21,437 nucleotides of DNA from a virus: positions 1-21,437 of the IMG/VR virus record IMGVR_UViG_3300030101_001427. One strand, given 5' to 3'. Both the position numbers and the translations under genes were made by a program. The stretch's first letter is position 1, and each line of letters opens with the position of its first letter. Below are positions 2,611 to 17,198 of the stretch, one piece after another. The notes under the pieces are model-generated. The model did not search any database. It saw only the letters and a list, made by a program, of their open reading frames with translations, and was not told the DNA's origin.

Positions 2611-3555
2611 TTATGAAGTTGTTAAATCAGCTACGACTCCATGAGCAGCTTCGTTGCTCATTTCTAAACCGTATTCAACTACAATCATTTTAGTTTGAGC
2701 ATCACCTATTGTTGAGATATCAACTGTTTGGAAATCTCTTAAGAATGATACTTTTGCAAAGTCAGGATCTACTAATAGTAGTGTTCTTTCTCTGCTGAAG
2801 TTAGAAGGTACTATTTTAAGCTCACCAAAATCTGATGCGTAAATAGAAACAGAAGCCTCTACTGTGTTTGCATCAATCATTTGTCTAGCTGAACTTCTAC
2901 CTGTGAAACCAGAAATTACTTGCTTGTTTACAGGGCCACAGATTGCCATTGAAGGCTCTCCACCGTTTGTAAAACAAGATTGTAATACTGTTTTAAGTAG
3001 TGCTTCAGTTAAAGCTCTCTGGTTACCTGCTGATGAATCAGTAGGAGCAGCACCGCCACCACTACCAGAACCACCAGTTCCTCTTGATACATTAGATGTA
3101 ATCCAAGATTCAAAACCGCCAGTTACCCTAGCTGTTGTTGCGTTACCAGTTGTTTTAGCACCTTTTTGACAGAGAGCTGTTTCCATATCTCTTTTTAATG
3201 CTTTAGACATAATAGCAAGTTGATGAGCCATTTCTGACTTTTTACCTGCTGGATCACTAGCTTGTTGTGAGCCAGTTACAGTTGCATCTCTTGATGAGAT
3301 CATTGCCACATTACTCACTCTTGAAGTAGCAGTTGAAGCAGCTCTTGAAAGTTCAAAACCTTCTAGCTGACCACTTCCGCTTGCAGTTGGTAATGTTTCT
3401 GTTTGCCAATCAAAAACTACATTCTTGATTGAGTTTTTTCCGATTGATGACATAAACGGAGTTTGCTGTGGAGAAATGTTATAGATAACATCACTTAGTT
3501 GTTCTCTATCAGCAGTCGCAGTATATGTATCAAAAGCGTTAGTTACTTTAGCCAT
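2611..3555 (-). CDS. Major capsid protein, SU10/DUF5309-type
   Basis: A 314-aa protein that should form the icosahedral shell with an HK97-like fold. The N-terminus F-D-T-Y-T-A-T-A-D-R-E-Q-L-S-D-V-I-Y-N-I-S-P-Q-Q-T-P-F-M is diagnostic of DUF5309/SU10-type capsids (given here only as the order of residues 8-35). Residues 155-177 carry a Gly/Ser-rich stretch (G-T-G-G-S-G-S-G-G-G), probably a flexible surface loop. The C-terminal half contains the strand A-M-A/I-C-G-P and L-K-I-V-P-S-N, as expected for the A-domain. It follows the scaffold gene after 22 bp, has an AAGGA ribosome site, and is followed by a strong terminator, which matches high expression. Its length is normal for the family. Confidence 0.92.
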   Translation of the reverse strand: MAKVTNAFDTYTATADREQLSDVIYNISPQQTPFMSSIGKNSIKNVVFDWQTETLPTASGSGQLEGFELSRAASTATSRVSNVAMISSRDATVTGSQQASDPAGKKSEMAHQLAIMSKALKRDMETALCQKGAKTTGNATTARVTGGFESWITSNVSRGTGGSGSGGGAAPTDSSAGNQRALTEALLKTVLQSCFTNGGEPSMAICGPVNKQVISGFTGRSSARQMIDANTVEASVSIYASDFGELKIVPSNFSRERTLLLVDPDFAKVSFLRDFQTVDISTIGDAQTKMIVVEYGLEMSNEAAHGVVADLTTS

Positions 3556-4631: not shown

Positions 4632-4892
4632 TTACACAACTTTATGTAGTCTGCCTAATTGTGATTTTGTAATCTTACCCTTCTCTACAATAATGCGGAG
4701 ATGTTTTTCAACTTCGGGCAACAGCTTAATAGCTTTGTGTAAATTTTCTCTTGTACTTATATCATCTCCTTTAGAAGATAACCATAAGTTTGTGTATTCA
4801 TCTTTAAGTATTTGTATAGCGTTTTTAAATGTTTCAGAGTTTAGAATTAACTCTGCTTCGTTAGAATGTAATATTTCTTCTTGTGATGCCAT
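4632..4892 (-). CDS. Small helical phage protein, unknown function (86 aa)
   Basis: I do not recognise a biochemical function. The product is predicted largely helical, with D-E-Y-T-N-L-W-L, R-E-N-L-H-K-A-I-K-L-L-P-E-V-E-K-H-L and a C-terminal G-K-I-T-K-S-Q-L-G-R-L. Similar small proteins lie near the scaffold gene in other marine phage genomes, so a morphogenesis role is plausible but inferred. Its ATG overlaps the TAA of the upstream Pro-rich protein by 1 bp (TAATG). A 49-bp AT-rich gap separates it from the scaffold gene; I see no convincing promoter or terminator there. Confidence 0.7.
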   Translation of the reverse strand: MASQEEILHSNEAELILNSETFKNAIQILKDEYTNLWLSSKGDDISTRENLHKAIKLLPEVEKHLRIIVEKGKITKSQLGRLHKVV

Positions 4893-5758
4893 TACCTTAA
4901 TAAACCACGCATTGGTTGTGCAATACTAAAGTCTGATCCGTTTGGAATTATTGGTTGGTTTAAAAAAGGATCAAAATTATTAAATCTATTTATATCTTCT
5001 ATAAATCTTGGTTCTTCAAAAACTGGTAAATTATCATTAATTATAAATTCTGATATGCTTGGAATTTCAGAAATATTAATATCTTCCACCAGTGGTACTG
5101 GTGGCATCATTAAATCTTCTGGTCTGAAAAAATCCTCTGAACGCCTAATCCCTGGGCCAAAACCAAAATCTTCTAATAGTATTGGCGGCATTTTTTTTGA
5201 AATTACTGGAGGAGGTGTAACTGGAGGAGGCATCATTAAATCTTCTGGTTTAAAAAAATCTTCAGATCGTCTTATGCCAGGGCCAAAACCAAAATCTTCT
5301 AAAGGTGTAACAACTGGAGCATCTTTTTTAAATGAATCTAAAATGCTTTGTATACCAGTAAGATCTAAAGGTTTATATCCTCTTAAAATATCTCTGGGTG
5401 GTGGAAATCTTAAATCTTCTGGTGGAAGAATGGTTATATTATCTCCCATACCACCGCCAATAATATTGGGTGGTAATTGGCTATAATCTGGTGGGTTTAC
5501 AGCATCTCCGCCTGGTAAAAATGCTGCATCATCTGGTGGACTGTCTGTAACAATATTAACATTTGGCAAACCGCTTGGTGGAAGATCCATTTGTGTATAT
5601 CCTTGTGGGTTTGCAGCTGAATAACTTACACCTGGCGCAATCATGTTGGGTACATTTTCTCCACCAGCTATAGAACGAGCATAGTTAAGACCACTTGTAA
5701 AAGTGGGATCGGTTGTAGGTATGATAACCCCATCACCTCCTGGTATTCCTATTGCCAT
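4892..5758 (-). CDS. Pro/Asp-rich low-complexity protein with an internal duplication
   Basis: A 288-aa protein with no recognised domain. It is rich in Pro, Asp, Phe, Ile and Gly and reads as largely disordered, with many short linear motifs. A block of about 25 residues (E-D-F-G-F-G-P-G-I-R-R-S-E-D-F-F, then P-E-D-L-M-M-P-P) occurs twice, separated by a Pro/Val linker. A third, weaker relative, L-P-P-E-D-L-R-F-P-P-P, occurs earlier. No signal peptide or membrane segment is seen. The ribosome site AGGAA precedes the ATG. It sits between the endolysin and the scaffold-side genes, so a virion or lysis accessory role is possible, but nothing in the sequence shows it. Such proteins may act as flexible linkers or partner-binding scaffolds. 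Confidence 0.65.
   Translation of the reverse strand: MAIGIPGGDGVIIPTTDPTFTSGLNYARSIAGGENVPNMIAPGVSYSAANPQGYTQMDLPPSGLPNVNIVTDSPPDDAAFLPGGDAVNPPDYSQLPPNIIGGGMGDNITILPPEDLRFPPPRDILRGYKPLDLTGIQSILDSFKKDAPVVTPLEDFGFGPGIRRSEDFFKPEDLMMPPPVTPPPVISKKMPPILLEDFGFGPGIRRSEDFFRPEDLMMPPVPLVEDINISEIPSISEFIINDNLPVFEEPRFIEDINRFNNFDPFLNQPIIPNGSDFSIAQPMRGLLR
5103..5302 (-). repeat. Duplicated 74-bp coding segment
   Basis: Copy A (5103-5176) and copy B (5229-5302) are the same length and mostly identical, differing largely at third codon positions. They encode the E-D-F-G-F-G-P-G block of the Pro-rich protein. The conserved protein with silent divergence suggests the duplicated motif is selected. Confidence 0.85.
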
Positions 5759-5794: not shown

Positions 5795-6253
5795 TTAGAC
5801 TTCATGCCATTCTTTACCATCAAATAATAATGCCTCTGCCTCTCTTCTTCTTACTAAACCCTGTAAAACTTTTCCGCCTGCTTTGTTCCATCTTTTTATT
5901 TGTGTAGGTATGTCGTTCCAGTCTTTATGCGTACTATTTAATACTTTTAATAATGTAGAGCTTTTTAAATTAGCTGGCCCAAGATTAAACACCCATGATA
6001 CCAAAGCATCAAATTCGTTTTGTTTTAAATTGACCTCAACCAAGTCATTTATATAACCTTCGTATTCTTCCATTTCGTTTAATAACAATTCATCGGCTTC
6101 TTCTTGGGTAATAGTATCACCTTCTTTTACACCCTTAGTTGAGCCATAACCTATTGTTAAAACATTAGCTGCACAACGATAAGCCTCTAGCTCACAACCC
6201 TCAAACTTTTTAATAAGAGATAAACCCTCTTGTGATATTTTCATATCACTCAT
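5795..6253 (-). CDS. Endolysin, GH24 (T4-type) lysozyme
   Basis: A 152-aa muramidase that cleaves peptidoglycan at the end of infection. The N-terminal catalytic region has the GH24 layout: Glu in K-K-F-E-G (about residue 17), Cys in Y-R-C, and Thr in L-T-I-G-Y-G. This is the E-8aa-D/C-5aa-T triad with Cys in the Asp position, as in P21-like enzymes. Further family marks are F-D-A-L-V-S-W-V-F-N-L-G in the middle and G-L-V-R-R-R-E-A-E near the end. I chose ATG at 6251-6253, which overlaps the holin stop (ATGAGTGA); a second ATG lies 9 bp on. No signal-arrest-release segment is seen, so export across the inner membrane should depend on the upstream holin. Length is typical. Confidence 0.92.
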   Translation of the reverse strand: MSDMKISQEGLSLIKKFEGCELEAYRCAANVLTIGYGSTKGVKEGDTITQEEADELLLNEMEEYEGYINDLVEVNLKQNEFDALVSWVFNLGPANLKSSTLLKVLNSTHKDWNDIPTQIKRWNKAGGKVLQGLVRRREAEALLFDGKEWHEV

Positions 6254-6725
6254 TTTTGTCGCTGGAGTGAGATGCTCCAAAATAGAACGAAATAATTGCA
6301 CTTGCTAATCCTCCAAGATAACCAAGCACTAAATTAATTAGTGCCTCGCTGTTCTGTTCTGGTGGTTGTAATGTTACTAGAAATATATAACCAAGAAAGC
6401 CGCCTATGGTAGCAATACCAATAATTCTTGCAGTCCAGTCTTTGCTAAACATACCTCTAGCGTGTTGTTTGTCTTGTGCTTCTAATTGAAAAACATCAAC
6501 ATCAAGTTTTTTCATTTGCGTTTCAAACTCTTGTTCTGCTTTCTTTAGCTCCATCATTTGCTCTGGAGTTGCGTTTTGTATTGCTTGTTGTACGGATTTT
6601 TGATCGTTAGACACGCCTAGCACTTCTGCTATCTTACCCATTGCCATGCCACCTAAAGGGCCACCCATAGCTGAACCAATGGTAGGAGCTACAGCTCCGA
6701 CTATGTTTTTTAAAATATTCTTCAT
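6246..6725 (-). CDS. Holin, 3TM family
   Basis: A 159-aa inner-membrane protein placed directly before the endolysin. The N-terminal part is Gly/Ala-rich (A-P-T-I-G-S-A-M-G-G-P-L-G-G-M-A) and followed by a charged helix with P-E-Q-M-M-E-L-K-K-A-E-Q-E-F-E. The C-terminal half has two hydrophobic helices (about 99-117 and 128-148) joined by a short polar loop. This order matches the 3TM holin family, in which the amphipathic N-terminus counts as the third segment. It should form the membrane lesion that releases the endolysin. Its ATG overlaps the stop of the XhlA-like gene (ATGA) and its stop overlaps the endolysin start, so all three are translationally coupled. Confidence 0.85.
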   Translation of the reverse strand: MKNILKNIVGAVAPTIGSAMGGPLGGMAMGKIAEVLGVSNDQKSVQQAIQNATPEQMMELKKAEQEFETQMKKLDVDVFQLEAQDKQHARGMFSKDWTARIIGIATIGGFLGYIFLVTLQPPEQNSEALINLVLGYLGGLASAIISFYFGASHSSDKNE

Positions 6726-6934
6726 AAAACGACTGTGATTACCGCGATAGATAAAGCACCAATAAAACCAAAGACACCAAAGGTTGCCATCTTAATAGTA
6801 TTGTTGATTGCTGCTATTTCTTGTTTTATATCTGCAAACTCATTAAAGGCTGTTTTCCACCTTTCTTCGTTTTCTTTTTTAGAAACTGCTAGGTCGGCTG
6901 CGACATCACTTGCTGTTATTTTTTTTGTAGTCAT
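6722..6934 (-). CDS. XhlA-like small membrane protein (lysis accessory)
   Basis: A 70-aa protein with a charged, coiled-coil-like N-terminal part (K-K-E-N-E-E-R-W-K-T-A-F-N-E-F, then I-K-Q-E-I-A-A-I-N-N-T-I) and one C-terminal membrane helix of about 20 residues (residues 50-70). This is the layout of the XhlA haemolysin/holin-partner family. It is co-translated with the 3TM holin through an ATGA overlap and is itself joined by ATGA to the end of the cyclase gene. The context supports a role in timing or assembling the holin lesion. The sequence is too short and plain to be certain of family membership. Confidence 0.65.
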   Translation of the reverse strand: MTTKKITASDVAADLAVSKKENEERWKTAFNEFADIKQEIAAINNTIKMATFGVFGFIGALSIAVITVVL

Positions 6935-8673
6935 GCGTTTGTATAGATTTTTAAATATTTACTTTTGCCCTTAACTTTTATCGGTCTTAGTGATTTTAAC
7001 TCAAAATCACAATTTTTTGCAGTATTTTCACCAATTAGTATATCAACGCCAACATCTTTAGTTGCTGACTCTAATCTTGCTGCGGTGTTTACACAATCAC
7101 CAATAGCTGAATAATCAAACCTAGTATTACTACCCATGTTGCCAATTACAGCTTCGCCAGTATTTACACCTATACCAATTTTTAATGGTATGTTTGTTAC
7201 TTGCATATCTTCTTGTATTTTTAATGCTGCTAGTATTGCTTGGTTTTGGTGATCTGGTAAATCTATAGGTGCATTAAATATTGCCATCATTGCATCGCCT
7301 ATATATTTATCAACCATGCCACCATATTGTTGAACTGCGTTAGATTGAATTGTTAATGCCTGGTTCATTAGTTCAGTAACTTGTTCTGGTTGTAATCTTT
7401 CTGACAAAGAAGTAAAACCTCTGACATCTGTAAATAAAAATGTTGCTTCTTTTTTCTCGCCACCAAGTTTTAATAAACTAGGATTATCTTGTAATTGTTT
7501 TACTTGGCGTGGATCAAGATAATGTTCAAACTGTTTTTTTATCTCTTGGCGTAATTTATATTGTTTTTGATAGTTTAGATAGAAAGAAATGGTCGAAGTT
7601 ATGATTTGTGATACAAAAGTCCATGAAAAATCAATTAAAACACCCTTTTGGATGCTAAAAACTCCTGAGATGCCCGTGGTGAGCAAGATAATTCCAAATA
7701 TACTTGCACCCTTAACTACATTAAAATAATTGATTGTGAGCCATGTCAGAGACACAAAAATCAGTAAAATCAAAATTTCGGCTGCTAAGTGCCAATCTGG
7801 TATATGAGGAGAGTTTTGTATCAAGATTGACTCAGCTAATGCTGCTTGGATCTTGTGTGGTTCTAATAAACCAACTGGAGTTGCAATCTGTGGCATGACT
7901 CCGTTGGCCGTTACGCCTACAAAAACAAACTTACCATTTACATTCATTTCTTGTAATGTGGTTTGCTCAGTATTAACCCAACTAATCCATTTACGACCAA
8001 GGCTATCTGTCTTAACTGGTGGTATTCCTCTTATTGATATTTCTGATATACCACTATCATTAGTTTTTATAATGTAAGTTTTTACATTAAACAACGATTT
8101 ATATATTTGTGTACCAAAACTAGGAATCCAATCTTTGTTGGGTGTTTTGACTAAAAGAGGTATTTTACGAACCAGTTGGTCTACATCTGTGGGAGCAATA
8201 GCTAAACCAGATAGCGTGTTGTTTGCTAACAGAGGAAGGTTTTGTTTTACTCCCGAACTAAGTATACCACCATTATTATTACCCATAACAACTGTGCCAG
8301 GCGATGCAGGATAATTACCTTTGCCATCTTCAAACATAGCTATAACAGATGGTGCGTAACCAAGTGCTTCTGCAAACATTTTATCACCGCCCATACGATC
8401 TGCTTGCGGAAAAGATACAACCCAACCAATGCCTATTGCACCCTTGTTTAGTAAGTCTATTTGTATTTCTGCTAGTCTTTGTCTAGGTAATGGCCAACCG
8501 CCTTTTCGTTCTACATCTTCTTCTGTTATGTTAAGTATGACAAAGTTACCAGATGGTTCTGGTGTTTTGATAAAAGTGTCATACACCTTTAGTTTTAGTA
8601 TTTCTGTAGGAGTGCTTTGAAAAAGCAAAGGTAAACTTAGTATTATAAGTAATGGTAATAATAGTTTGTTCAT
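6931..8673 (-). CDS. CHASE2-domain adenylate cyclase (class III)
   Basis: A 580-aa transmembrane sensor that should make cAMP from ATP. Residues 1-19 are a signal-anchor helix. Residues about 30-290 form the extracytoplasmic CHASE2 domain (Y-D-T-F opening, I-T-E-E-D-V, G-W-P-L-P-R, V-F-V-G-V-T). Three membrane helices lie at about 296-316, 323-342 and 347-366, and a class III cyclase domain occupies about 405-578. The active site looks complete: metal-binding Asp416 (F-T-D-V-R-G-F-T) and Asp460 (K-Y-I-G-D), adenine-selecting Lys456 and Asp520 (R-F-D-Y-S-A-I-G-D), and transition-state Asn529 and Arg533 (V-N-T-A-A-R). Lys/Asp rather than Glu/Cys argues for adenylate over guanylate cyclase. Its ATG directly abuts the stop of the FecR gene, and its stop overlaps the XhlA-like gene. 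CHASE2 cyclases are usually bacterial; one in a phage late operon is very unusual. Confidence 0.93.
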   Translation of the reverse strand: MNKLLLPLLIILSLPLLFQSTPTEILKLKVYDTFIKTPEPSGNFVILNITEEDVERKGGWPLPRQRLAEIQIDLLNKGAIGIGWVVSFPQADRMGGDKMFAEALGYAPSVIAMFEDGKGNYPASPGTVVMGNNNGGILSSGVKQNLPLLANNTLSGLAIAPTDVDQLVRKIPLLVKTPNKDWIPSFGTQIYKSLFNVKTYIIKTNDSGISEISIRGIPPVKTDSLGRKWISWVNTEQTTLQEMNVNGKFVFVGVTANGVMPQIATPVGLLEPHKIQAALAESILIQNSPHIPDWHLAAEILILLIFVSLTWLTINYFNVVKGASIFGIILLTTGISGVFSIQKGVLIDFSWTFVSQIITSTISFYLNYQKQYKLRQEIKKQFEHYLDPRQVKQLQDNPSLLKLGGEKKEATFLFTDVRGFTSLSERLQPEQVTELMNQALTIQSNAVQQYGGMVDKYIGDAMMAIFNAPIDLPDHQNQAILAALKIQEDMQVTNIPLKIGIGVNTGEAVIGNMGSNTRFDYSAIGDCVNTAARLESATKDVGVDILIGENTAKNCDFELKSLRPIKVKGKSKYLKIYTNA

Positions 8674-9792
8674 TTAATTACTTTGAGTGATAGTGATAAC
8701 ACTATCGCTGCCTCCGTTGACTTTAATTATATTAGATACGCCATCTTGTATCAAAATGACCGTGTAAGCATCGCTACCGTTTAAGTCTAACCTCACGCTT
8801 TCATTTACATTTCTACGCAGACTTACAACATTACCAGTTATAAGTGCTGTTATCTGTGTGTCAGGATCTTTACCCAACAAAGTACCAGCTATTTGTGTGC
8901 TGGTAGCTTGTGCTAATTGATCTTCCTCATCTTCTACAGCTAACGCATCTAACACGTTCAATAAGTCCTCCAGGTAATTTACATCAAGGTAATTTATGTC
9001 TAGTTCTGTAAATTCTAAACTATCTTCTTTCAAATAGTCCTCTGCAAGATAGTCTATGTCTAAATCATTAAAATCTAACACGCTATCTGTTTGTGTTGTC
9101 GTAGCCTCTTCTTCTATAACCACATCTTCTTTGGGTGGTGTAACAATAAGCATATTGTCTATAAGGTCTAGGGTTAGGTCTAAGATTACTGGTTTGGTTG
9201 GTGTTGATTCAAACACGCTTACGGTTGTAGCTTCGTAGGGTTTGTTTAGCGTTACTGTTCCCATACCCGTGGTTACTAATATTTCGCCACTAGATAGACC
9301 ATATTTATCAGGCAAAAGAATAATTAGACTACGACCAAGCTCATCAACGGTTGCAGTAAAGTCAGTACCACGAATAGCTATGTTTGCTGTAGGTGTTTTT
9401 AGTGTAATGTTTTGCTTATCTATGCGGTTTAGATTACCAGTAATAAACCTGGCTGTACCAAGTCCAAAGGTAAGTGCCATCTTTGCTTTGCTTGGGTCTG
9501 GATCGTAGATGTATTCATCTATTAGCAGTTCTGAAAACTCTGTTAGTTTTACAACAGAATCATCTAAAAAGGTAATAGCCATGCGGCCATCTTTGGTTAT
9601 CGCCTCATCATTGCTTTGTATAGCAAAATCAAGATCAGCATTGTAGGTTTTGTCTCTGACTATTTGAGCCGAACCGTTTAGCTCAGATATGTCGCCAATA
9701 TTAGCAGCTTGTGCTTGTACCTTGGTCGTTTTGGATAACGCAAACAGTAGAAGCAGCAGTACCAGAAACGGATATGATTTTGAGCCAGTCAT
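8674..9792 (-). CDS. Periplasmic FecR-domain protein with a curlin-like C-terminal tail
   Basis: A 372-aa exported protein. Residues 1-27 are a clear Sec signal peptide with cleavage after V-Q-A. The FecR-like beta domain spans about 33-185 and includes the family hallmark T-P-T-A-N-I-A-I-R-G-T-D-F (133-145). Unlike anti-sigma FecR proteins, it has no N-terminal cytoplasmic helix and no internal membrane helix. Residues 240-290 are an acidic repeat of D-I-(D/N)-Y-L units. Residues 337-372 carry N-G-S-D, I-Q-D-G-V-S-N and N-G-G-S-D, then I-T-I-T-Q, matching the curlin signature Q-x-G-x2-N. The gene overlaps the curlin-like gene by 92 bp and abuts the CHASE2 cyclase with no spacing. FecR-CHASE2 cyclase pairs are a known bacterial arrangement, so it probably acts as the ligand-binding partner of that sensor. 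Confidence 0.88.
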   Translation of the reverse strand: MTGSKSYPFLVLLLLLFALSKTTKVQAQAANIGDISELNGSAQIVRDKTYNADLDFAIQSNDEAITKDGRMAITFLDDSVVKLTEFSELLIDEYIYDPDPSKAKMALTFGLGTARFITGNLNRIDKQNITLKTPTANIAIRGTDFTATVDELGRSLIILLPDKYGLSSGEILVTTGMGTVTLNKPYEATTVSVFESTPTKPVILDLTLDLIDNMLIVTPPKEDVVIEEEATTTQTDSVLDFNDLDIDYLAEDYLKEDSLEFTELDINYLDVNYLEDLLNVLDALAVEDEEDQLAQATSTQIAGTLLGKDPDTQITALITGNVVSLRRNVNESVRLDLNGSDAYTVILIQDGVSNIIKVNGGSDSVITITQSN

Positions 9793-10426
9793 TATCTTGT
9801 GTACTTAGTTGTGAAATATTAAAAGTTCTTGAACCACCAGTATGGTCTAACCAAAAATATCCACCTGCTGAGGCATTAACACCTGTACCTGTATAAGTTA
9901 CTGTATTATCAGAACCATCTATATCCATGTAGTTAGTAGCACCATCAATATTTATATTTGATGTAACTGTGTTATTTGAACCATTAATAATCCAATCTAA
10001 GTCAAGTGATGCAGCCAATGCTGTTGTGCCTTGATTTAATGTAAATGTATTACCACTACCTGTGACATCAACATTTTGGTTTGAACCATCAGCACTATAG
10101 GTATCTGTAGGATCTACTTGAATAGTAAATGAGTTAGTTCCGCCATCAAACTCGTAGAAACCTGTAAATGTGTCAGCAAATATATCACCAAGAAACTTGT
10201 TAGTTGCACCAATCATATTGATGTCAAGTGTCATAGTATTACCATCTAAATCAAATGCGTTTACACTACCTGCTGTAGAGTTTAGACCACCAATAATATT
10301 AGATATACCAAGCTGTTCTAGGTCTATGTTTGCACCCGTACCAGATTGATCTACGTATATTTCGTTATCAGCCGCGTATGTTGTCAATGCAGTCAGCATC
10401 ACAATCAGGCTTATTAATTTCTTCAT
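9701..10426 (-). CDS. Secreted curlin-like (CsgA-like) repeat protein
   Basis: A 241-aa protein, likely the substrate of the adjacent CsgG pore. Residues 1-18 are a signal peptide (M-K-K-L-I-S-L-I-V-M start, cleavage after T-Y-A). The mature N-terminus contains V-D-Q-S-G-T-G-A-N and Q-L-G-I-S-N (Q37-x-G39-x2-N42), the spacing seen in curlin repeats. Further on there are degenerate units with D-G-N-T, G-G-T-N, G-S-G-N-T, G-S-N-N-T and G-S-D-N-T followed by Thr/Val strands, as in an Asn/Gly/Ser-rich beta-solenoid. It has no long hydrophobic segment and only two Cys, both near the end. It overlaps csgG by 59 bp and the FecR gene by 92 bp. The match to CsgA is in pattern and context rather than close sequence, so amyloid formation is predicted, not shown. 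Confidence 0.72.
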   Translation of the reverse strand: MKKLISLIVMLTALTTYAADNEIYVDQSGTGANIDLEQLGISNIIGGLNSTAGSVNAFDLDGNTMTLDINMIGATNKFLGDIFADTFTGFYEFDGGTNSFTIQVDPTDTYSADGSNQNVDVTGSGNTFTLNQGTTALAASLDLDWIINGSNNTVTSNINIDGATNYMDIDGSDNTVTYTGTGVNASAGGYFWLDHTGGSRTFNISQLSTQDNDWLKIISVSGTAASTVCVIQNDQGTSTSC

Positions 10427-11267
10427 TATCTAATTTTACTCCCTCATTATTGTTTTGTAAAACCCAGAAACCTCGTTCATAACCAGACTTAACTATTTCT
10501 AACACACCGCCCTCAATCGCTTTCATTAGTGCTATAGTTGATGATTCGTTTCTTGCGTTTCCTAGTTCTATTTCCACTAGCTCGGTATTAGCCTCAATAA
10601 ACCTAAATACATCCTCTGATTTACCATAGCTAAATATGGTCTTTTGACTCAGCACTTCTAATAACACCTCGCCCGTAGCTACAGAAACCATACGTAGACT
10701 TACGGTTATATTATCTTCTCTGTATTGTACGCTGTTACCTATGCCTAGGTATCTAGCTCCAATACCGCCAGATTCTAAGTTAGCTTCGTAAGATATAACA
10801 GCTCCTTCTATTAAAATGCCAGCAAACAACAAAGGTCTTAGTGCTTTCTTTTTCTCTTCTTCAGTTGCGGTTTGCTCTCTTGCAGATCTTATTAGTTGTC
10901 GTTCTTTGGTAAGGTTATCTAATCCGACTCGTTCAACCACCCTAAAAAACTTTCCGTTACCAGCGTGTTTTAAGGCTCGTATAAGTAGTGCGTTTGGCTG
11001 TTGGGTTATGGCTGTACTAAATAAAGCAAACTCACTATTACTTTTTCTTTGACCAGTTTGGTCTGTAAAAGCGGTTGGATATACAGCAACCACAGGACTA
11101 GCTTGTGGTATGGGTACATTTTTAAGTTCTACTGATTGTAGGTCTTGTATTGATACTATGTCTTTGCTTGAAAATCTTTGTGCGTAAGTATCTTCGTACT
11201 GGTCAAATATAGAACAGCTAGAAAGTAAAAGTACCAATAGGTATTGTAATTTCTGTAACTGTGCCAT
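10368..11267 (-). CDS. csgG: CsgG, curli secretion channel lipoprotein
   Basis: A 299-aa outer-membrane lipoprotein that should form the nonameric curli export pore. The signal peptide ends in a lipobox L-S-S-C with lipidated Cys18. The family core is very clear: A-V-Y-x-x-x-F-T-D-Q-T-G-Q near 61-72, F-S-T-A-I near 83-87, R-L-I-R-S-A-R-like helix near 125-130 (R-Q-L-I-R-S-A-R), G-A-R-Y-L-G-I-G at 170-177, V-A-T-G-E-V-L-x-x-V at 196-205 and K-T-I-F-S-Y at 209-214. It ends with a helix containing M-K-A-I-E-G-G-V and E-R-G-F-W. Compared with the E. coli pore, the constriction aligns F83 with Phe56, but the Tyr51 and Asn55 positions appear to be Ser78 and Leu82. A short acidic tail with two Cys extends past the usual end. 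It overlaps csgF by 50 bp. I regard the identification as secure. Confidence 0.95.
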   Translation of the reverse strand: MAQLQKLQYLLVLLLSSCSIFDQYEDTYAQRFSSKDIVSIQDLQSVELKNVPIPQASPVVAVYPTAFTDQTGQRKSNSEFALFSTAITQQPNALLIRALKHAGNGKFFRVVERVGLDNLTKERQLIRSAREQTATEEEKKKALRPLLFAGILIEGAVISYEANLESGGIGARYLGIGNSVQYREDNITVSLRMVSVATGEVLLEVLSQKTIFSYGKSEDVFRFIEANTELVEIELGNARNESSTIALMKAIEGGVLEIVKSGYERGFWVLQNNNEGVKLDNEEINKPDCDADCIDNIRG

Positions 11268-11730
11268 CTGCTTCTGTTATTTTAAGAGTTAATGTTACAC
11301 CATCGCTAGTGTATTCTATGGTGTTGCCTTCTAGGGTTATTGTACCTGAACTTTGCGGTGTTTCTCCAAACAGATTATTAACCAGTTGCCTGGATAGTTC
11401 TGCATAGACTCTTGATTCTAGGTTACGCATGAACCTTGCAAGTGTAGAGTTTTCTTTTTCTCTTTCTATTTCATCTTGTAAGGCTTTGATTTCTTCTTTA
11501 ATCGTTAGCTTACGACTAAACTCTTGGTTTTCTATAGTTAGATAGTGTGAGCTAGTACTTACGCCATTAAAACTTGGCGATTTAAACTTGTGTACTATTT
11601 GATCTGCTTTTACATTTATAGCAATAACGCCTAAAAACATAATTAAACCCATGAACATAATCCAAATTAATATTCTGGTTTTTGCAGCTTCTTCCTGCAT
11701 TTGTTTTTTGCTAATCTTTCCTTTGGTCAT
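11218..11730 (-). CDS. csgF: CsgF, curli secretion accessory protein
   Basis: A 170-aa exported protein that should dock into the CsgG pore. The N-terminus has 19 mostly charged residues, a hydrophobic helix at about 20-40, then V-K-A before residue 43, which fits a signal peptidase site; the n-region is unusually long. The mature start I-V-H-K-F-K-S-P-S-F-N-G aligns with the CsgG-binding F-x-F-x-N-P-N-F-G-G segment of E. coli CsgF. A helical neck (76-122, K-E-E-I-K-A-L-Q-D-E-I-E-R) is longer than in E. coli. The C-terminal beta region (129-166, ending T-E-I-T-I-P) matches the family head domain. It overlaps csgG by 50 bp and the upstream membrane protein gene by 20 bp. The CsgF-CsgG order supports the call. 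Confidence 0.9.
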   Translation of the reverse strand: MTKGKISKKQMQEEAAKTRILIWIMFMGLIMFLGVIAINVKADQIVHKFKSPSFNGVSTSSHYLTIENQEFSRKLTIKEEIKALQDEIEREKENSTLARFMRNLESRVYAELSRQLVNNLFGETPQSSGTITLEGNTIEYTSDGVTLTLKITEADGTVTEITIPIGTFTF

Positions 11731-12061
11731 CTCTGTCCGCCTTTGCTAACCTGTCGGTGTGCATAAGTTGTGGTACACCAAGTATAGTCTTTAGCAGAGT
11801 ATCTTGTCTAATTATCTCGTTGTCTACAGATCTAACTCTATCTATAAGAGCAACTAAAATACCGTGTTGTGAGTCTAGTTTTTGACCTAGTCGTTGTTCT
11901 ATTTCTGATATTTGTGCGCTGACTTTTTCATCAAGTACATCTACTTTGGTTTCCATACCATCAATAATTTTGTTGATTAGTTTCCAGATAAATAAACCAA
12001 GACCTATAGCTGCTGCTATCGGAAAACCGACTTCGTTTATTAAAGTTACTGCTGATTCCAC
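11711..12061 (-). CDS. Membrane protein with coiled coil, holin-like
   Basis: A 116-aa protein with one N-terminal membrane helix (about residues 12-33, G-F-P-I-A-A-A-I-G-L-G-L-F-I-W) followed by a long heptad-rich coiled coil (E-T-K-V-D-V-L-D-E-K-V-S-A-Q-I-S-E-I-E). The layout resembles small phage holin-like proteins (BhlA type), but I see no decisive motif. The start appears to be GTG at 12059-12061, because no ATG lies in the frame before the membrane helix. The nearest ribosome site, GGGGAG, is about 14 bp upstream, farther than usual. It follows the nuclease gene by 6 bp and overlaps csgF by 20 bp. It could be a third lysis protein or an inner-membrane partner of the curli cassette. Confidence 0.62.
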   Translation of the reverse strand: MESAVTLINEVGFPIAAAIGLGLFIWKLINKIIDGMETKVDVLDEKVSAQISEIEQRLGQKLDSQHGILVALIDRVRSVDNEIIRQDTLLKTILGVPQLMHTDRLAKADRDDQRKD

Positions 12062-12067
12062 AAGGTT

Positions 12068-12448
12068 TTAGTAGTCTCCCCAAACCTTGCTTTTCTTTCC
12101 GCCATGGTATTCGACCGCATGGCCTTCATTGATTAAAATTTGACAGATGTCTTGACCATCTTCTGTGTAAGGTATGCCGAGAATACGGCCATATTTGCCT
12201 TTGCCTAGTGATTTAACTTTAAAGTTACCGTGGCAAAGTTCTTTAAGTCTATCTTTTGCAGCAAGACCTAGTTTCTTTTCTGCTAAATCACGGGTTCTTG
12301 ATTCTGGTGTGTCTATGCCGTGTAACCTGACTCTTTGTTTGTGTAGTTTGACATCAAAACCAAGGTCTAAAATACAATCAAATGTATCTCCATCTACAAT
12401 CCTATCAAGTGTAGCATTGTAAACAAAGGCATCTGGTGAGTCAGCCAT
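12068..12448 (-). CDS. SNase-like (micrococcal nuclease family) nuclease
   Basis: A 126-aa protein with the staphylococcal nuclease fold. The key positions are present: Asp21 in V-D-G-D-T, Arg41 in V-R-L-H-G-I-D-T-P-E, Asp46 and Thr47 for calcium binding, Glu49 as base, and Arg88 in K-Y-G-R-I-L-G. The C-terminus has the usual I-N-E-G-H-A-V-E-Y helix and ends with W-G-D-Y. No signal peptide is present, so it should act in the cytoplasm, for example on host DNA or RNA, or in DNA processing near packaging. Its length is that of a minimal single domain. The ATG overlaps the stop of the upstream small gene by 1 bp (TAATG). Confidence 0.9.
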   Translation of the reverse strand: MADSPDAFVYNATLDRIVDGDTFDCILDLGFDVKLHKQRVRLHGIDTPESRTRDLAEKKLGLAAKDRLKELCHGNFKVKSLGKGKYGRILGIPYTEDGQDICQILINEGHAVEYHGGKKSKVWGDY

Positions 12449-12674: not shown

Positions 12675-12848
12675 TTATTTTTGCGTTCTAGCTTTCTTCT
12701 TAGCTGTCTTGCTTAGTTCTCCAAAATGAAATAATTTTTTACTTGTTTTAGTGTGAGACTTGTTTGTATGTATAGTGCCATTAGGCATTTTGTGCATACT
12801 GCCTTTGTGCAAAGTACCATCTCTTTTATAATGTTTAACGCCTTTCAT
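12675..12848 (-). CDS. Small basic phage protein (57 aa)
   Basis: ATG at 12846-12848, TAA at 12675-12677. The product is rich in Lys, His and Thr, with G-V-K-H-Y-K-R-D-G-T-L, M-P-N-G-T-I-H-T and S-K-K-L-F-H-F. I recall similar M-P-N-G-x-x-H-(S/T)-x-x-x-H-T proteins in other marine phages, so it is probably a real conserved gene. The high positive charge suggests nucleic acid binding, perhaps internal to the virion, but this is inference. It follows the next gene upstream by 2 bp. Confidence 0.68.
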   Translation of the reverse strand: MKGVKHYKRDGTLHKGSMHKMPNGTIHTNKSHTKTSKKLFHFGELSKTAKKKARTQK

Positions 12849-12850
12849 AA

Positions 12851-12937
12851 TTAATACTTCATTTTTTTAGATTTAGTTTTTTTCTTCTTTGGCGGTCTGC
12901 CTTTTTTAGATCCGTAAGTTCCTTTTCCTCTTGGCAT
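12851..12937 (-). CDS. Micro-protein, Lys-rich (28 aa)
   Basis: ATG at 12935-12937 with an excellent ribosome site (GGAGATAACT before ATG), TAA at 12851-12853. The sequence begins M-P-R-G-K-G-T-Y-G-S-K and continues as a run of Lys/Pro. Proteins with this opening recur in marine phage genomes between portal and nuclease genes. About half of the residues are basic. The GGAG of its ribosome site lies inside the last codons of the upstream gene, so the two are coupled. The function is unknown; DNA binding is likely. Confidence 0.72.
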   Translation of the reverse strand: MPRGKGTYGSKKGRPPKKKKTKSKKMKY

Positions 12938-12939
12938 AG

Positions 12940-13098
12940 TTATCTCCTTTTCTTTGCTGTCTTAGCAGCTTTTTTAAACGCTTTTGCTGTTGGTGCGCCT
13001 TTTGAACCAGGTTTTCTCATTCGTTCTTTTGAGCCAGCTTTAATTCTTTTTCTTTTAGCGTGTATGTTCGCATAAAGACCTTTCTTTTTTCCAGGCAT
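12940..13098 (-). CDS. Conserved basic phage protein (52 aa)
   Basis: ATG at 13096-13098 (ribosome site GGAGATACT), TAA at 12940-12942. It reads M-P-G-K-K-K-G-L-Y-A-N-I-H-A-K-R-K-R-I, followed by M-R-K-P-G-S-K-G-A-P-T-A-K-A-F, a highly recognisable sequence found in many cyanophages and other marine phages. It is extremely basic, with no acidic residues beyond one Glu. A role in DNA condensation or packaging is often guessed but not established to my knowledge. Confidence 0.8.
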   Translation of the reverse strand: MPGKKKGLYANIHAKRKRIKAGSKERMRKPGSKGAPTAKAFKKAAKTAKKRR

Positions 13099-13107
13099 AG
13101 TATCTCC

Positions 13108-13356
13108 TTACCATTTTTTGCAAGACCAATATCTTGCGGTTAGTTTACTAGGCGGATTGCTGTCGCACTTATGCCTAGCACGAAAACTTTTTCTTCTTGC
13201 GGGTTGGTCTTTTTTGATTGTCATTTTAGGATCACCAAAACGTATAAGTTTGGTTTTATCTTTTACTTTGGCTACTACGGCAAACTTCTTAGATTTACCT
13301 GGTGTACGTTTTGGTTTGTTATAACCGCTAAACCTTTCGCCTCTGTATGTAATCAT
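13108..13356 (-). CDS. Conserved marine-phage protein, DUF5872/DUF6321-like (82 aa)
   Basis: A basic 82-aa protein. The N-terminus Y-R-G-E-R-F-S-G-Y-N-K-P-K-R-T-P and the later K-L-I-R-F-G-D-P, then R-R-K-S-F-R-A-R-H-K-C and A-R-Y-W-S-C-K-K-W, form the pattern of a small domain common in marine phages and also seen in large eukaryotic viruses. The family number is from memory and may be off by a neighbour. The two Cys (in R-H-K-C and W-S-C) and His could bind zinc. An AGAGGG ribosome site precedes the ATG at 13354-13356. It lies 9 bp from its neighbours on each side. Molecular function unknown. Confidence 0.8.
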   Translation of the reverse strand: MITYRGERFSGYNKPKRTPGKSKKFAVVAKVKDKTKLIRFGDPKMTIKKDQPARRKSFRARHKCDSNPPSKLTARYWSCKKW

Positions 13357-13365
13357 TGCAACCCT

Positions 13366-13548
13366 CTAATGTATATGTGTTTCCTTTGATGATATTAGTT
13401 CTGAATCATCTGGTATTTGTAAAAACACCATGGCAACTTGTTTAGCTTCTTCTAAGTTTCTTGCCTTTATGTCAGAACCAATATAGATCAAACCTTCTTT
13501 CAAAAATTGTAATTCGTAAATTTTATTGATTTGGTTGACCGTTTCCAT
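13366..13548 (-). CDS. Small protein overlapping the portal 3' end (60 aa)
   Basis: I chose ATG at 13546-13548, which gives 60 residues; the longer frame starts at TTG and has no support. It overlaps the end of the portal gene by 26 bp in another frame. The product has K-I-Y-E-L-Q-F-L-K-E-G-L-I-Y-I-G-S and A-R-N-L-E-E-A-K-Q-V-A, which resembles a small alpha/beta fold. No family is recognised. An AAGGA motif lies about 11 bp before the start. Confidence 0.6.
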   Translation of the reverse strand: METVNQINKIYELQFLKEGLIYIGSDIKARNLEEAKQVAMVFLQIPDDSELISSKETHIH

Positions 13549-15661
13549 TAGTAAACATTCCTTGTGATTGAGACTTAGCAACTTGTCTTATTGCCTCTCT
13601 GTCTCTTTCCATAATAGCATTTATTTCAGCAACATTAACCTGTGCGCCAAACTTAGCTTGTAGTTCAGCAATTTTAATTTTCATGTTTGCCGCAGCCTCA
13701 TCACGGTTTCTGTCATCTTCCATGATAATCTTCATTCTGTCAGTTTCGGCATCTATAATTGCTTTTTGTCCTAAGTTTTGAGCTTTCATTGCTTCAGCTT
13801 GTGCCAACATTTCAGCAGGATCAGGTTTCTGTTCCTCTGGCGGTTGTGGTGGCATAGGTGGTATATCGGTATTGATAAATGTTTTCGCATCTTTAAAGCC
13901 AGCCATCTCAATCATTTTAGTTAAAGTGTTGGCGTATTGCTGTAAATCAACCAAAGGATTTTGTGGCCCTAGAGTTTGCATGATTTGTTCTTGTTTTTGT
14001 GCAAGCGAGGTAAGGACTTGGAACTTTTCTTCATCCGATGATTTAGATATAGCAACATTTATAACCATATCTTTATCTGAATCCCAGTATCTAGGATCAA
14101 CAGGTATAAACTCATTGTTTAATCGCATTACATCTTGGCTCTCTTGGTGTTTGATAACCAAAGAATTAACCAGTTTAAATAAATCTTTCATGCCATCTGC
14201 AAAGTGTCGGCAAATAAGTTCTACTCTACCCTGTGCGCCAGACATGGTTGCTGATACTGCGGAAGCTGTAGAGCTTTGCAACGCATCTGCGTTTAATCCA
14301 GCACTAGCCTTAGAAACACCCGTTCTGTTTTCTTTTGCCTCATCTAAATAAGACAAGACAGGGAAAGCCTCTTTACCAACGAAGGGTACGGTAAAGGGTT
14401 GCACCATTCCAGGCGCACGCATCCTAATTGGTTGACCAATATCGGTGTTAAGAACATCATCAATGTTTACTTGCCCTTCAACTATTCCCATTCGGGGGAA
14501 GATGGCGTGGCCTAAACTATCAAGCGTATCTCTCATTATCTGAGATTTAGCTGCTTGAATAGGCATTAGGTAGTCCGCTGGACATGAACCGATGGAGGTA
14601 TGCGGTTCTGGATCGGGACAGAAGAGTGTAATAGGTAAATCATCCCAGGGAATTGTGTTAACAATGTTTAACCCATTCCCAACGGTGCATACCCTTATCC
14701 TTTCATCTATGCCATCGCCATCTAAATCATAAAAAACATAATGTTCTACATAAAGAACATTTTTGCTGTTGTTGTCAGCTCGATCAACACCAGTAAAATC
14801 TGCGTAGGGGTTTCTTGCTTGTTCTAGTTCGTAGGAATCTTCATCAACTGCACTTCCAGAACCAGCGAACATTTGCATTTCTTCTTTGTCATAACCCATA
14901 GCAACTAAGTCGCTAATTGTTTTAACCATACGGTGTGCAACATAGGGTGATGAGTGTAAATCTCTTGCGTGTCTGGATATTAATATTTCTTCTGTTGGTA
15001 CAGCTTCTATGCACACTTGGTCTTTAGCCTTTACTCTGCGAATAGTTACATCATAACTAGCAGGAGTTTCTTGTACTATCTCCTCGCCAGTCATCTGATC
15101 CATAACTGTCATGCTTTGCATCTCAACTTTTTCTTCTACCATTTCTACATCAGGATCTAACATTAATGCTTGATATGCCTCTGGCGATATGTTGCTGTAT
15201 TCGTGGGTGGATGAGCTAATAGTGTCATCCCAGTAGGCTTTTACATAACCAGCCTTTCTGACCAACGCATCTTTGAACACATCGTACATAACTTTAAAAC
15301 CAGGGTTCTTTTGTTGAATGATGTAGTTAATATAATTAGTTTGTTGTTTAGCAACTTCAATATCTTCAGGGCCGTTGGGTATAAACTCAACCACCTTGCT
15401 AGTACCAAAAAAGGTACGCATGATGCTAGGTAGCATAAACAATACGCTATCTCTAACATCTGTCGATACAAACTCTGATTGCATAGAGCTTTGTCCAGAA
15501 GGAGAGTTACCAAGGTAATAATCTGTAGCATCTGCTCTTTCTTCATCTATCTGGTCAATAAAGTCTTTGGCATCATCCATCTCAGACTTTAACACGCCCT
15601 GCAATTCTTCTATGTTTGCATCTTCGGTTTGATCCATCTTTTTATTTTTGTCTTGTTCCAT
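13523..15661 (-). CDS. Portal protein, P22-type
   Basis: A 712-aa protein that should form the dodecameric DNA channel at one capsid vertex. Its length matches P22-type portals (about 720 aa) rather than T7 or HK97 types. Typical features are R-A-D-A-T-D-Y-Y-L-G near residue 45, D-V-R-D-S-V-L-F-M-L-P-S-I-M near 70, G-Y-V-K-A-Y-W-D-D near 140, a conserved core with D-L-D-G-D-G-I-D-E-R and L-P-I-T-L-F-C-P-D-P-E-P-H, and N-R-T-G-V-S-K-A-S-A-G-L-N-A near 447. The C-terminal 80 residues are a long helix rich in Glu, Met and Ala (the barrel in P22), ending with a Gln/Asn-rich tip. It lies 4 bp after the large terminase stop. Assignment is strong. Confidence 0.93.
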   Translation of the reverse strand: MEQDKNKKMDQTEDANIEELQGVLKSEMDDAKDFIDQIDEERADATDYYLGNSPSGQSSMQSEFVSTDVRDSVLFMLPSIMRTFFGTSKVVEFIPNGPEDIEVAKQQTNYINYIIQQKNPGFKVMYDVFKDALVRKAGYVKAYWDDTISSSTHEYSNISPEAYQALMLDPDVEMVEEKVEMQSMTVMDQMTGEEIVQETPASYDVTIRRVKAKDQVCIEAVPTEEILISRHARDLHSSPYVAHRMVKTISDLVAMGYDKEEMQMFAGSGSAVDEDSYELEQARNPYADFTGVDRADNNSKNVLYVEHYVFYDLDGDGIDERIRVCTVGNGLNIVNTIPWDDLPITLFCPDPEPHTSIGSCPADYLMPIQAAKSQIMRDTLDSLGHAIFPRMGIVEGQVNIDDVLNTDIGQPIRMRAPGMVQPFTVPFVGKEAFPVLSYLDEAKENRTGVSKASAGLNADALQSSTASAVSATMSGAQGRVELICRHFADGMKDLFKLVNSLVIKHQESQDVMRLNNEFIPVDPRYWDSDKDMVINVAISKSSDEEKFQVLTSLAQKQEQIMQTLGPQNPLVDLQQYANTLTKMIEMAGFKDAKTFINTDIPPMPPQPPEEQKPDPAEMLAQAEAMKAQNLGQKAIIDAETDRMKIIMEDDRNRDEAAANMKIKIAELQAKFGAQVNVAEINAIMERDREAIRQVAKSQSQGMFTNGNGQPNQ

Positions 15662-15665
15662 AAAG

Positions 15666-17198
15666 TTATCCCACTCGTATTATTCTTGATGTCAAGGGTT
15701 TCTTGAAATTATACCCTAAAAAGTTCTCGCCACCACTAAAACTTGCAGCTGCACTTGCCATGGTTAATGCTAATGCATCTGCTTTGTCGGGCGATTTTAT
15801 GCCTCTTTTTTTCATTTCATCTTTTGATTCTATTTTTATTTTTCCTGTTGAGGTGTACTTGTAACTTGGTGCGGCTAGCTCCGACACAAGTTCATCATCG
15901 TTTGGCAGTCTGCAATCACGCTGCGTAAGCCAATCTTTTATAGCAAACCAAAGCTCAGCGCGTAGGTTTAAATAGTTTTTTCTAGTAGCTGGTGCTTCTG
16001 CTACATTAATACCTCTAACGGGTAAATTTTGTTCTAACAGCCTGTCTACCACACCACTACCAAGACCAATGACATCAATTAATATTTCGCTTGGTTGTTC
16101 TAATGCCGTGCAATCATCGTATAAATTTTTAACTGCACCGCATAATTGCATTAAATCCATTGATTTAAAAGTCTTAATTTCAAAGACAGTATTACCTTGT
16201 CTAACACAAAGCGCAGAGTTGTCGCCACCAAAACGAGCAACATCCAAACCCCACACAATAGGTGCTTTGGCGGTTAGCGATACATCTCTATCTATAGCAG
16301 CTCTTGCTAATTCTATTGGTACTACTGAATCATCATCAGCGTTTGGAAACTCTCCCAATACTTCTACTCTTGCAACGGTTGAATCTTCACCATATTGTTC
16401 TAGCATGGTCTGAAACAGCTTTTGATCTGTTCCCTCAACAGTCCTAGAGTCAATTTGTTTTAGATTCCAGAACTTACGCTTAGAGGTAAAGCTCTCGTAA
16501 AACGGCCCAGTATTTCTTCTTGGGTTAGAAAAGGTAAACCAAAAACGGTTTTCGGTAGGTTCTGAGAAGAAACCTTCCGATACGCTGTAGATAGGAGCAG
16601 GAATACCCGATGCTTCATCCATTATCAAACATACTCCGTAAGATGAGTGGATTCCTGCAAACGCATCTGGGTTTTCCTCACTCCATAATTGTGCTTGGGC
16701 GTAATAGTAACCAGTATCGATTTTTAGGTCGCGTTTTAGTGCTTCTTCAAACCAAGCATCTGGCTTTATGGTGGTTGCAGTTTTAGTAAACCAATGATTG
16801 TTTATGGATAGCGTTAGCCACTTACCTAATTCCGCCCATGTTCTTGATCTAAGCTGTTGTTCGGTGTTAGCGGTTACGATAATTGTAGAACCAAGTCTGG
16901 TTGATAGCATCCAAAGTATTAACCAGGCAACTAAGGCGGACTTTCCTATGCCACGACCACTTGCTACAGCAAGTCTAAACATCTCTGGCGTTACCACGCC
17001 TTGGTTTCTTTGTATGTGAGTTGTTAAATCTTTTAAAATTTTTTCCTGCCACTTACGAGGGCCAGTAAATTCTTCGAGGGGGGTGTCTTTTTCTCCCCAG
17101 GGGAAGATAAATTTGACAAAGTTGTAGGGATCATCCGCAACCTGTGGCGACCATATTTCGGTCATTAGTTCTTTTTCTGCTTCTGCTCCGTATTTCAT
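15666..17198 (-). CDS. terL: Terminase large subunit
   Basis: A 510-aa packaging motor. The N-terminal ATPase has Walker A A-S-G-R-G-I-G-K-S (79-87, Lys86), Walker B C-L-I-M-D-E-A (190-196, Asp194/Glu195) and a coupling segment near F-T-F-S-N-P-R. The C-terminal RNase H-like nuclease has its acidic residues at Asp319 (G-L-D-V-A-R-F-G-G-D), Asp375 (I-L-I-D-V-I-G) and Asp474 (S-P-D-K-A-D-A-L-A-L). It cuts the concatemer and pumps DNA through the portal encoded 4 bp downstream. Its ATG overlaps the stop of the methyltransferase gene (ATGA). Normal length and intact motifs indicate a functional enzyme. Confidence 0.96.
   Translation of the reverse strand: MKYGAEAEKELMTEIWSPQVADDPYNFVKFIFPWGEKDTPLEEFTGPRKWQEKILKDLTTHIQRNQGVVTPEMFRLAVASGRGIGKSALVAWLILWMLSTRLGSTIIVTANTEQQLRSRTWAELGKWLTLSINNHWFTKTATTIKPDAWFEEALKRDLKIDTGYYYAQAQLWSEENPDAFAGIHSSYGVCLIMDEASGIPAPIYSVSEGFFSEPTENRFWFTFSNPRRNTGPFYESFTSKRKFWNLKQIDSRTVEGTDQKLFQTMLEQYGEDSTVARVEVLGEFPNADDDSVVPIELARAAIDRDVSLTAKAPIVWGLDVARFGGDNSALCVRQGNTVFEIKTFKSMDLMQLCGAVKNLYDDCTALEQPSEILIDVIGLGSGVVDRLLEQNLPVRGINVAEAPATRKNYLNLRAELWFAIKDWLTQRDCRLPNDDELVSELAAPSYKYTSTGKIKIESKDEMKKRGIKSPDKADALALTMASAAASFSGGENFLGYNFKKPLTSRIIRVG

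Follow-up and report, generated by a model that had tools for sequence, protein, structure and literature searches.

The virus fragment IMGVR_UViG_3300030101_001427, an IMG/VR record of 21,437 bases that was analysed at full length and is called the window here, carries among its phage genes a block related to the curli, or type VIII, secretion system (T8SS). We consider it probable that this block is an accessory phage cassette for curli-like export and sensing, which would alter the surface of the infected cell. Export of a curlin-like protein by the infected cell is the most economical reading. The cassette is already known in kind from marine phages, and the SU10-type backbone of the window is a further carrier. 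The genes of the cassette, in their order of reading, are as follows.

11711..12061, minus strand: 116-aa membrane protein, the first gene of the cassette (one N-terminal hydrophobic segment, predicted transmembrane; coiled coil)
11218..11730, minus strand: CsgF homologue with a long signal/anchor N-terminus and an FKSPSFNG segment (Pfam PF10614, E 7.6e-17)
10368..11267, minus strand: CsgG homologue, outer-membrane secretion pore lipoprotein (Pfam PF03783, E 4.3e-46)
9701..10426, minus strand: secreted curlin-like beta-solenoid protein, presumed exported substrate (signal peptide; family profile; predicted structure)
8674..9792, minus strand: secreted FecR-domain protein (Pfam FecR, E 1.1e-8; signal peptide; structure model)
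6931..8673, minus strand: membrane-bound protein with a CHASE2 periplasmic sensor and a predicted class III adenylate cyclase (Pfam CHASE2, 1.3e-27; Guanylate_cyc, 1.7e-21)

The genes of the region are all encoded on the minus strand and either overlap or adjoin one another, with overlaps of 20, 50, 59 and 92 bp between consecutive genes from the 116-aa gene through FecR, while the FecR and cyclase genes abut. Phage genes stand on both sides of the cassette (SU10-type portal, capsid and adaptor; scaffold; terminase).

The export genes

An original prediction, made from the letters of the window alone, had named CsgG with its lipobox, CsgF with the segment F-K-S-P-S-F-N-G, and a fusion of these genes by overlaps to phage genes on either side, and all of this is borne out. 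Besides its Pfam match, CsgG matches the sequences of the E. coli CsgG structures in the PDB at E 7e-49, and its lipobox reads LLLSSC. The Pfam score of CsgF exceeds the cut-off, the protein matches PHROG 35372 (E 1.3e-42), and its FKSPSFNG segment aligns with the pore-binding segment FRNPNFGG of E. coli CsgF; a comparison of the CsgF family profile with solved structures gave nothing significant. PHROGs families are matched by CsgF, CsgG, FecR and the cyclase, and the database lists no function for them.

Curlins cross the outer membrane via CsgG and CsgF. The window's candidate for such a substrate is homologous to the annotated CsgB-like protein of phage HTVC008M (tblastn 3e-7). A family profile was built from 36 diverse members, 19 of which match the Pfam curlin repeat, Curlin_rpt, at E <= 0.1 (the best at 3.7e-9). 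Although the Q-x-G repeats are degenerate in the window's protein, it holds nine G-x-x-N motifs against a mean of 2.9 in shuffled sequences, and none of 2000 shuffles reached that number. An AlphaFold2 model of the protein (predicted local distance difference test score, pLDDT, 85) consists of short stacked strands with turns at G-x-x-N. Aligned to the subunit of the CsgA fibril of E. coli, it covers 110 of 111 residues at Z 12.1, with a root-mean-square deviation (rmsd) of 8.6. This match is no better than that to non-amyloid beta-helices, three chains of which score higher; a Foldseek comparison of the model with the PDB yielded nothing at E <= 0.001 and placed the CsgA fibril at E 4.9. The model therefore supports a beta-solenoid fold class, while amyloid is only putative, because the rmsd is large and other beta-helices score higher.

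Five further contigs (L149, L150, L151, L157 and L159), up to about 197 kb in length, hold T8SS cassettes that are more distant. In several of these the curlin repeats are clearer, and no small membrane genes immediately precede CsgF in them. The T8SS cassette extends into these further viral groups.

The FecR-domain protein, the cyclase and the first gene

The secreted FecR-domain protein consists of a signal peptide, a FecR domain at about residues 60-213, a linker (216-303) of acidic L-D-x-x pentads that is modelled with low confidence, and a C-terminal beta domain that ends in VITITQSN. The modelled FecR domain resembles PupR (6ovk; Z 15.6, rmsd 2.4, 135 residues), and its fold matches the anti-sigma/PupR domains of cell-surface signalling. 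The protein has no N-terminal cytoplasmic anti-sigma domain, only a signal-peptide-type hydrophobic segment preceding the FecR domain, and no sigma gene that might serve as an extracytoplasmic function (ECF) partner is found among the window's annotated genes. The published name for this protein, iron-dependent regulator (Wittmers et al. 2022, PMC9599517), does not appear to be borne out by the sequences.

The tail of the protein is unusually constant. A terminal strand of the form [hydrophobic]-x-[hydrophobic]-x-Q, followed by one to three residues, ends all 102 distinct FecR homologues, as against 17 of 2233 background open reading frames (ORFs), and its Gln is among the few residues that are invariant in 26 diverse FecR sequences. 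The same ending is found in curlins: with up to 10 trailing residues in 55 of 63 viral curlins, the window's included, and with up to three in 25 of 31 second curlins, in E. coli CsgB and in several alphaproteobacterial curlins. When their profiles were compared, the FecR C-terminal domain and the curlin family did not resemble each other convincingly (probability 3.7), and the idea that this is itself a curlin domain was dropped. We therefore describe the tail as a short terminal signature that is shared with curlins, with homology unproven. Because the terminal strand is of the type found in curlins, FecR is proposed to be exported or to sit in the base of the fibre. The fuller proposal, that FecR is itself a substrate of the curli route or a fibre-base protein whose FecR domain reports to the CHASE2 cyclase, making the pair an export-coupled sensor that sets cyclic AMP (cAMP), is speculative and has a modest chance of being right.

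The cyclase has its CHASE2 domain at residues 12-306 and hydrophobic stretches at 291-341, and its motifs TDVRGF, DKYIGDA, DYSAIGD and VNTAAR align with solved bacterial cyclases. It thus has the sensor, the transmembrane segments and the metal and transition-state residues of a CHASE2 class III adenylate cyclase. A sensor set had been part of the original prediction; the FecR gene (8674-9792) indeed lies inside the span singled out there, and the cyclase gene (6931-8673) just outside it. Two bacterial precedents bear on this pair. A biofilm-regulating operon of Burkholderia pairs a secreted LysM-FecR protein with a sensor kinase that contains CHASE2 (PMC5192318). In Sinorhizobium meliloti, CyaD1 that lacks CHASE2 produces cAMP constitutively (PMC5498481), from which it follows that CHASE2 restrains a cyclase.

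Does the 116-aa gene belong with the rest? Loci fetched with the window's portal gave 16 informative carriers of the cassette and 27 informative loci that are free of it, which are related to one another, such that the carrier counts are not independent. The gene is present in all 16 carriers and in none of the 27 cassette-free loci, and it therefore belongs to the cassette. One or two relatives of about 90-116 aa stand directly upstream of CsgF in 142 of 157 loci. Wittmers et al. 2022 (PMC9599517) named the upstream gene histidine kinase; its position before CsgF and its number, one or two, lead us to infer that theirs is the same gene. None of 16 members of the 116-aa family matches the HisKA or HATPase domains, even at E <= 1, and the sequences point to small membrane proteins for which the kinase label is unsupported.

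Carriers, transfer and known relatives

A scan of viral contigs with CsgG found 387 relatives, 80 of which were kept, and an alignment-based scan found at least 572, again with 80 kept. Among informative viral loci, CsgF is present in 157 of 157, the curlin-like gene in 158 of 158, FecR in 139 of 139 and the cyclase in 84 of 85; where the cyclase gene has been relocated (L124, L161), it remains close to the cassette. The gene order proposed from the window is thus found again, with the same block in well over 100 viral contigs, and three of them (L001, L006 and L034) repeat the neighbourhood seen in the window, with flanks that match. The ratio of nonsynonymous to synonymous change (dN/dS) is 0.04-0.11 for the substrate, FecR and pore genes, which is lower than or comparable to that for portal, terminase and capsid; for CsgG it is 0.04-0.09, and the curlin-like protein (0.04-0.11) is as constrained as the pore. 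The cassette is under strong purifying selection and is nearly indivisible across viral loci.

The cassette also occurs on another phage backbone (for example L004), whose relatives include HTVC023P and HTVC027P. In a CsgG tree of 73 podophage-type sequences (a quick tree with some long branches, and with backbone labels taken from marker hits), six parsimony changes between the two backbones are required, and a single clade of SU10-type carriers is rejected (approximately unbiased test, p-AU 0.00016). Between the window and L006, the synonymous difference is 0.26-0.49 in CsgF, CsgG, curlin, FecR and cyclase, against 0.63-0.73 in portal, terminase and capsid. Given the rejection of a single origin and the lower synonymous difference, we conclude that the cassette moves between unrelated phages and is kept as a unit.

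Much of this arrangement has been described. Wittmers et al. 2022 (PMC9599517) reported the order CsgF-CsgG-CsgA/B-FecR-(CsgA/B)-adenylate cyclase in HTVC023P-type pelagiphages, which are podophages, with transfer of the cluster between phage families and expression in metatranscriptomes; the cluster is also treated by Zaragoza-Solas et al. 2020 (PMC7029224) and Buchholz et al. 2022 (PMC9004378). The original prediction was therefore right about csgF/csgG-like genes in marine phages, since HTVC008M and Methylophilales phage Melnitz carry them in GenBank, and it was mistaken in expecting a complete set of substrate and sensor to be something further. The HTVC023P-type cassette resembles the window's in having, in the same order, one or more small membrane genes, CsgF, CsgG, curlin-like, FecR and cyclase genes, without CsgC, CsgD or CsgE. 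It differs in that the window has SU10-type head genes; SU10, lysozyme, endolysin and holin are unmentioned in that paper (PMC9599517).

The other carriers differ more in their surroundings. HTVC008M (2013), in whose GenBank record CsgF, CsgG, a CsgB-like protein and a cyclase are named, has like other pelagimyophages (PMC7029224) CsgF, CsgG (47% identical), curlin-like, FecR-type and cyclase proteins that are homologous to the window's, but it has a T4-like myophage backbone, a second curlin gene and no adjoining lysis cassette. Melnitz has homologous genes in the same order. The paper on it (PMC9004378), in which no CsgA/B is reported, suggests a role like that of a pinholin, whereas the phage's own GenBank records list, with CsgF, CsgG, a FecR-domain protein and a cyclase, two curlin-associated repeat proteins. 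The curli genes of E. coli (csgBAC and csgDEFG) provide homologues of CsgG and CsgF and a related beta-repeat substrate, CsgB even having the C-terminal strand signature; the window differs in the lack of matches to CsgE, csgC and csgD, in its altered pore constriction, and in the additional FecR and cyclase genes. The Burkholderia operon (BiofilmReg; PMC5192318), finally, also sets a secreted FecR-domain protein beside a CHASE2 membrane sensor, but there the protein with CHASE2 belongs to the histidine kinases and has a response regulator, and the fusion partner of FecR is LysM instead of a curlin-like tail.

Bacterial loci gave little sign of the signalling genes. Four alphaproteobacterial curli loci (L089 and L263-L265) all hold csgF and csgG, with curlins in three, and no FecR or CHASE2 cyclase was found nearby; with four loci and profiles built from viruses, this is a weak negative, and it is in these few bacterial loci that the export-coupled arrangement was not found. 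Sampled alphaproteobacterial FecR matches are confined to the FecR domain, leaving the C-terminal part unmatched, and among the sampled alphaproteobacterial ORFs below 620 aa that were read out, none ends in the strand signature. FecR does stand beside CsgG in genome-collection contigs L085-L088, L091 and L096, which derive from metagenome-assembled genomes and are mostly short and viral-looking; L084 ends before the FecR position. A record of 1,499 bases named "Salmonella phage S.Kent 1-2-1" (OR851715.1) has a CsgG-like gene and is possibly host curli DNA.

The surroundings of the cassette in the window are those of a phage late region.

13523..15661, minus strand: SU10-type portal protein, backbone (Pfam SU10_portal, 8.7e-190)
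2611..3555, minus strand: SU10-type major capsid protein, backbone (Pfam SU10_MCP, 7.5e-87)
12068..12448, minus strand: SNase-like nuclease, context (Pfam SNase, 6.5e-13)
6722..6934, minus strand: 70-aa protein with a C-terminal transmembrane segment (hydrophobic 52-70), lysis-region context, outside the cassette
6246..6725, minus strand: holin-like membrane protein, context (weak GTA_holin_3TM, E 0.016; PHROG 1544, E 3.5e-28, no function listed)
5795..6301, minus strand: endolysin of glycoside hydrolase family 24 (GH24), context (Pfam Phage_lysozyme, 4.3e-47)

The SU10-type assignment rests on the Pfam matches of portal and major capsid (E values above) and of the adaptor (1.4e-39). Portal and capsid are closest to those of uncultured Manatee Spring phages, Sinorhizobium phage phiM5 and Microcystis phage MJing1, all less than 60% identical, and the nearest Pelagibacter phage is HTVC106P (portal 33%, capsid 44%). 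The SNase-like gene varies in position among the loci compared (L003, L006 and L028), lying upstream of CsgF or downstream of the cyclase, and the window's SNase profile has no match in cassette-free SU10-type relatives. Small transmembrane genes at a position similar to that of the 70-aa gene occur in cassette-free relatives also, and several of these have homologues of the holin-like protein. Between portal and cassette (12675-13356) lie small, very basic ORFs of 57, 52 and 82 aa, similar to ones in cassette-free relatives. A proline-rich protein of 288 aa (4892-5758) contains FGFGPGIRRSEDFF twice, has no family match and varies among relatives, and an MT-A70-type methyltransferase gene (17195-17623), of which many relatives have no detected copy, overlaps the start of terminase. 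No RNA families or tRNAs were found in the window, and a search of the region for repeats gave nothing notable.

What the cassette may do for the phage

How would such a cassette work? By homology, CsgG would form a pore in the outer membrane, with CsgF docking on it. The curlin-like beta-solenoid would be the main exported substrate, from which a fibre or coat would be built on the infected cell's surface, while the secreted FecR-domain protein and the CHASE2 cyclase may act as a signalling pair from periplasm to cytoplasm. In the least certain step, FecR would be handled by the export route or join the base of the fibre, such that the location of its FecR domain tells CHASE2 the status of export and thereby sets cAMP. 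At a guess, the 116-aa protein may act in the inner membrane as a helper of the cyclase or of the pore. The benefit to the phage would most likely be a change of the cell surface late in infection, which would serve aggregation or keep other phages out, two outcomes that the data do not separate.

Several observations weigh against this account. The constriction loop of CsgG is altered relative to that of E. coli, with Phe kept, Tyr and Asn not, and one residue added. CsgE is the gate of the CsgG pore in E. coli. As originally predicted, no CsgE was found in the window, which may be a fragment, in a search that detected the E. coli control; none lies within the cassette itself, and no match to csgC or csgD was seen in the window either. 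With no CsgE and an altered loop, the handling of substrate may differ from that in E. coli, where curli form without CsgE and the yield is higher with it (PMC7029224). The window's curlin by itself falls below the Pfam cut-off for Curlin_rpt (E 0.57 against the library, 7.9e-4 for this record only), while its homologues, as given above, support the curlin-like protein of the original prediction. The equally good fit of non-amyloid beta-helices and the failed profile comparison for the FecR tail, both described above, belong here as well. In addition, cultures infected with the related phage Melnitz did not clump (Buchholz et al., PMC9004378).

This last point suits a rival explanation, in which the same export machine delivers a protein that coats the cell or serves as a decoy, masking receptors or excluding superinfecting phages, instead of an aggregating amyloid fibre. 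To this explanation we give a modest chance. The degenerate repeats of the window's substrate, a fold that general beta-helices match no worse than CsgA does, and the exchange of cassettes between phage types all suit it, while the clear curlin repeats of the more diverged homologues favour fibres in the family at large.

Another reading makes the pore a means of uptake, in which an ungated CsgG pore would admit larger nutrients or cofactors, with the secreted proteins as plugs or filters. It was put forward by Zaragoza-Solas et al. 2020 (PMC7029224) as well as by Wittmers et al. 2022 (PMC9599517), and the altered constriction loop and the lack of a detected CsgE gate in the window suit it. 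Considering that CsgF is constant and that the curlin-like substrate is conserved as strongly as the pore, neither of which uptake explains, we regard this role as rather improbable.

A part in lysis, which the original prediction listed among possible uses, has been proposed for Melnitz in the form of a pinholin-like device that times lysis or disrupts the outer membrane. The window's cassette does adjoin a holin-like gene and an endolysin, and lysozyme genes are often nearby in podophage-type loci. The empty site, however, argues otherwise. The 27 informative cassette-free relatives have portals 71-88% identical to the window's; in seven of them that were read out, the interval from the portal to gene 4632 spans 2.0-4.4 kb, as against 7.6-8.8 kb in three carriers. 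The seven short intervals contain small basic genes, membrane proteins that are small or holin-like and, by reading of the sequence, an endolysin of a D,D-peptidase-like type, and the three carriers have a holin-like gene and an endolysin alongside the cassette. Because these cassette-free relatives keep membrane-protein and endolysin genes, the cassette is an accessory insertion and not the lysis system of the phage. The cassettes of HTVC008M and Melnitz, moreover, adjoin tail and replication genes, with no annotated endolysin, and a lysis role now seems very unlikely. Endolysins are themselves swapped at this site: the window has a GH24 enzyme (5795-6301; compared with L181, L192, L207, L236 and L244), whereas cassette-free SU10-type relatives and carriers such as L223 and L229 have one that ends in HIWSY and looks like a D,D-peptidase.

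An assembly chimera of phage and bacterial DNA is ruled out by the recurrence of the same block with matched phage flanks in many independent contigs, and with intact frames and dN/dS far below 1 the chance of a decaying, functionless bacterial insertion is negligible.

Curli-type cassettes are present in very many marine viruses. To what was known of them, the window and its relatives add an SU10-type carrier, repeated transfer between unrelated backbones, an empty site, and the revision of two annotations in the literature, those of the histidine kinase and of FecR as an iron-dependent regulator. Together, the transfer, the empty site, the constant presence of substrate, FecR and cyclase, and the retention of lysis genes where the cassette is lacking narrow the options to export or change of the cell surface, along with cAMP signalling.

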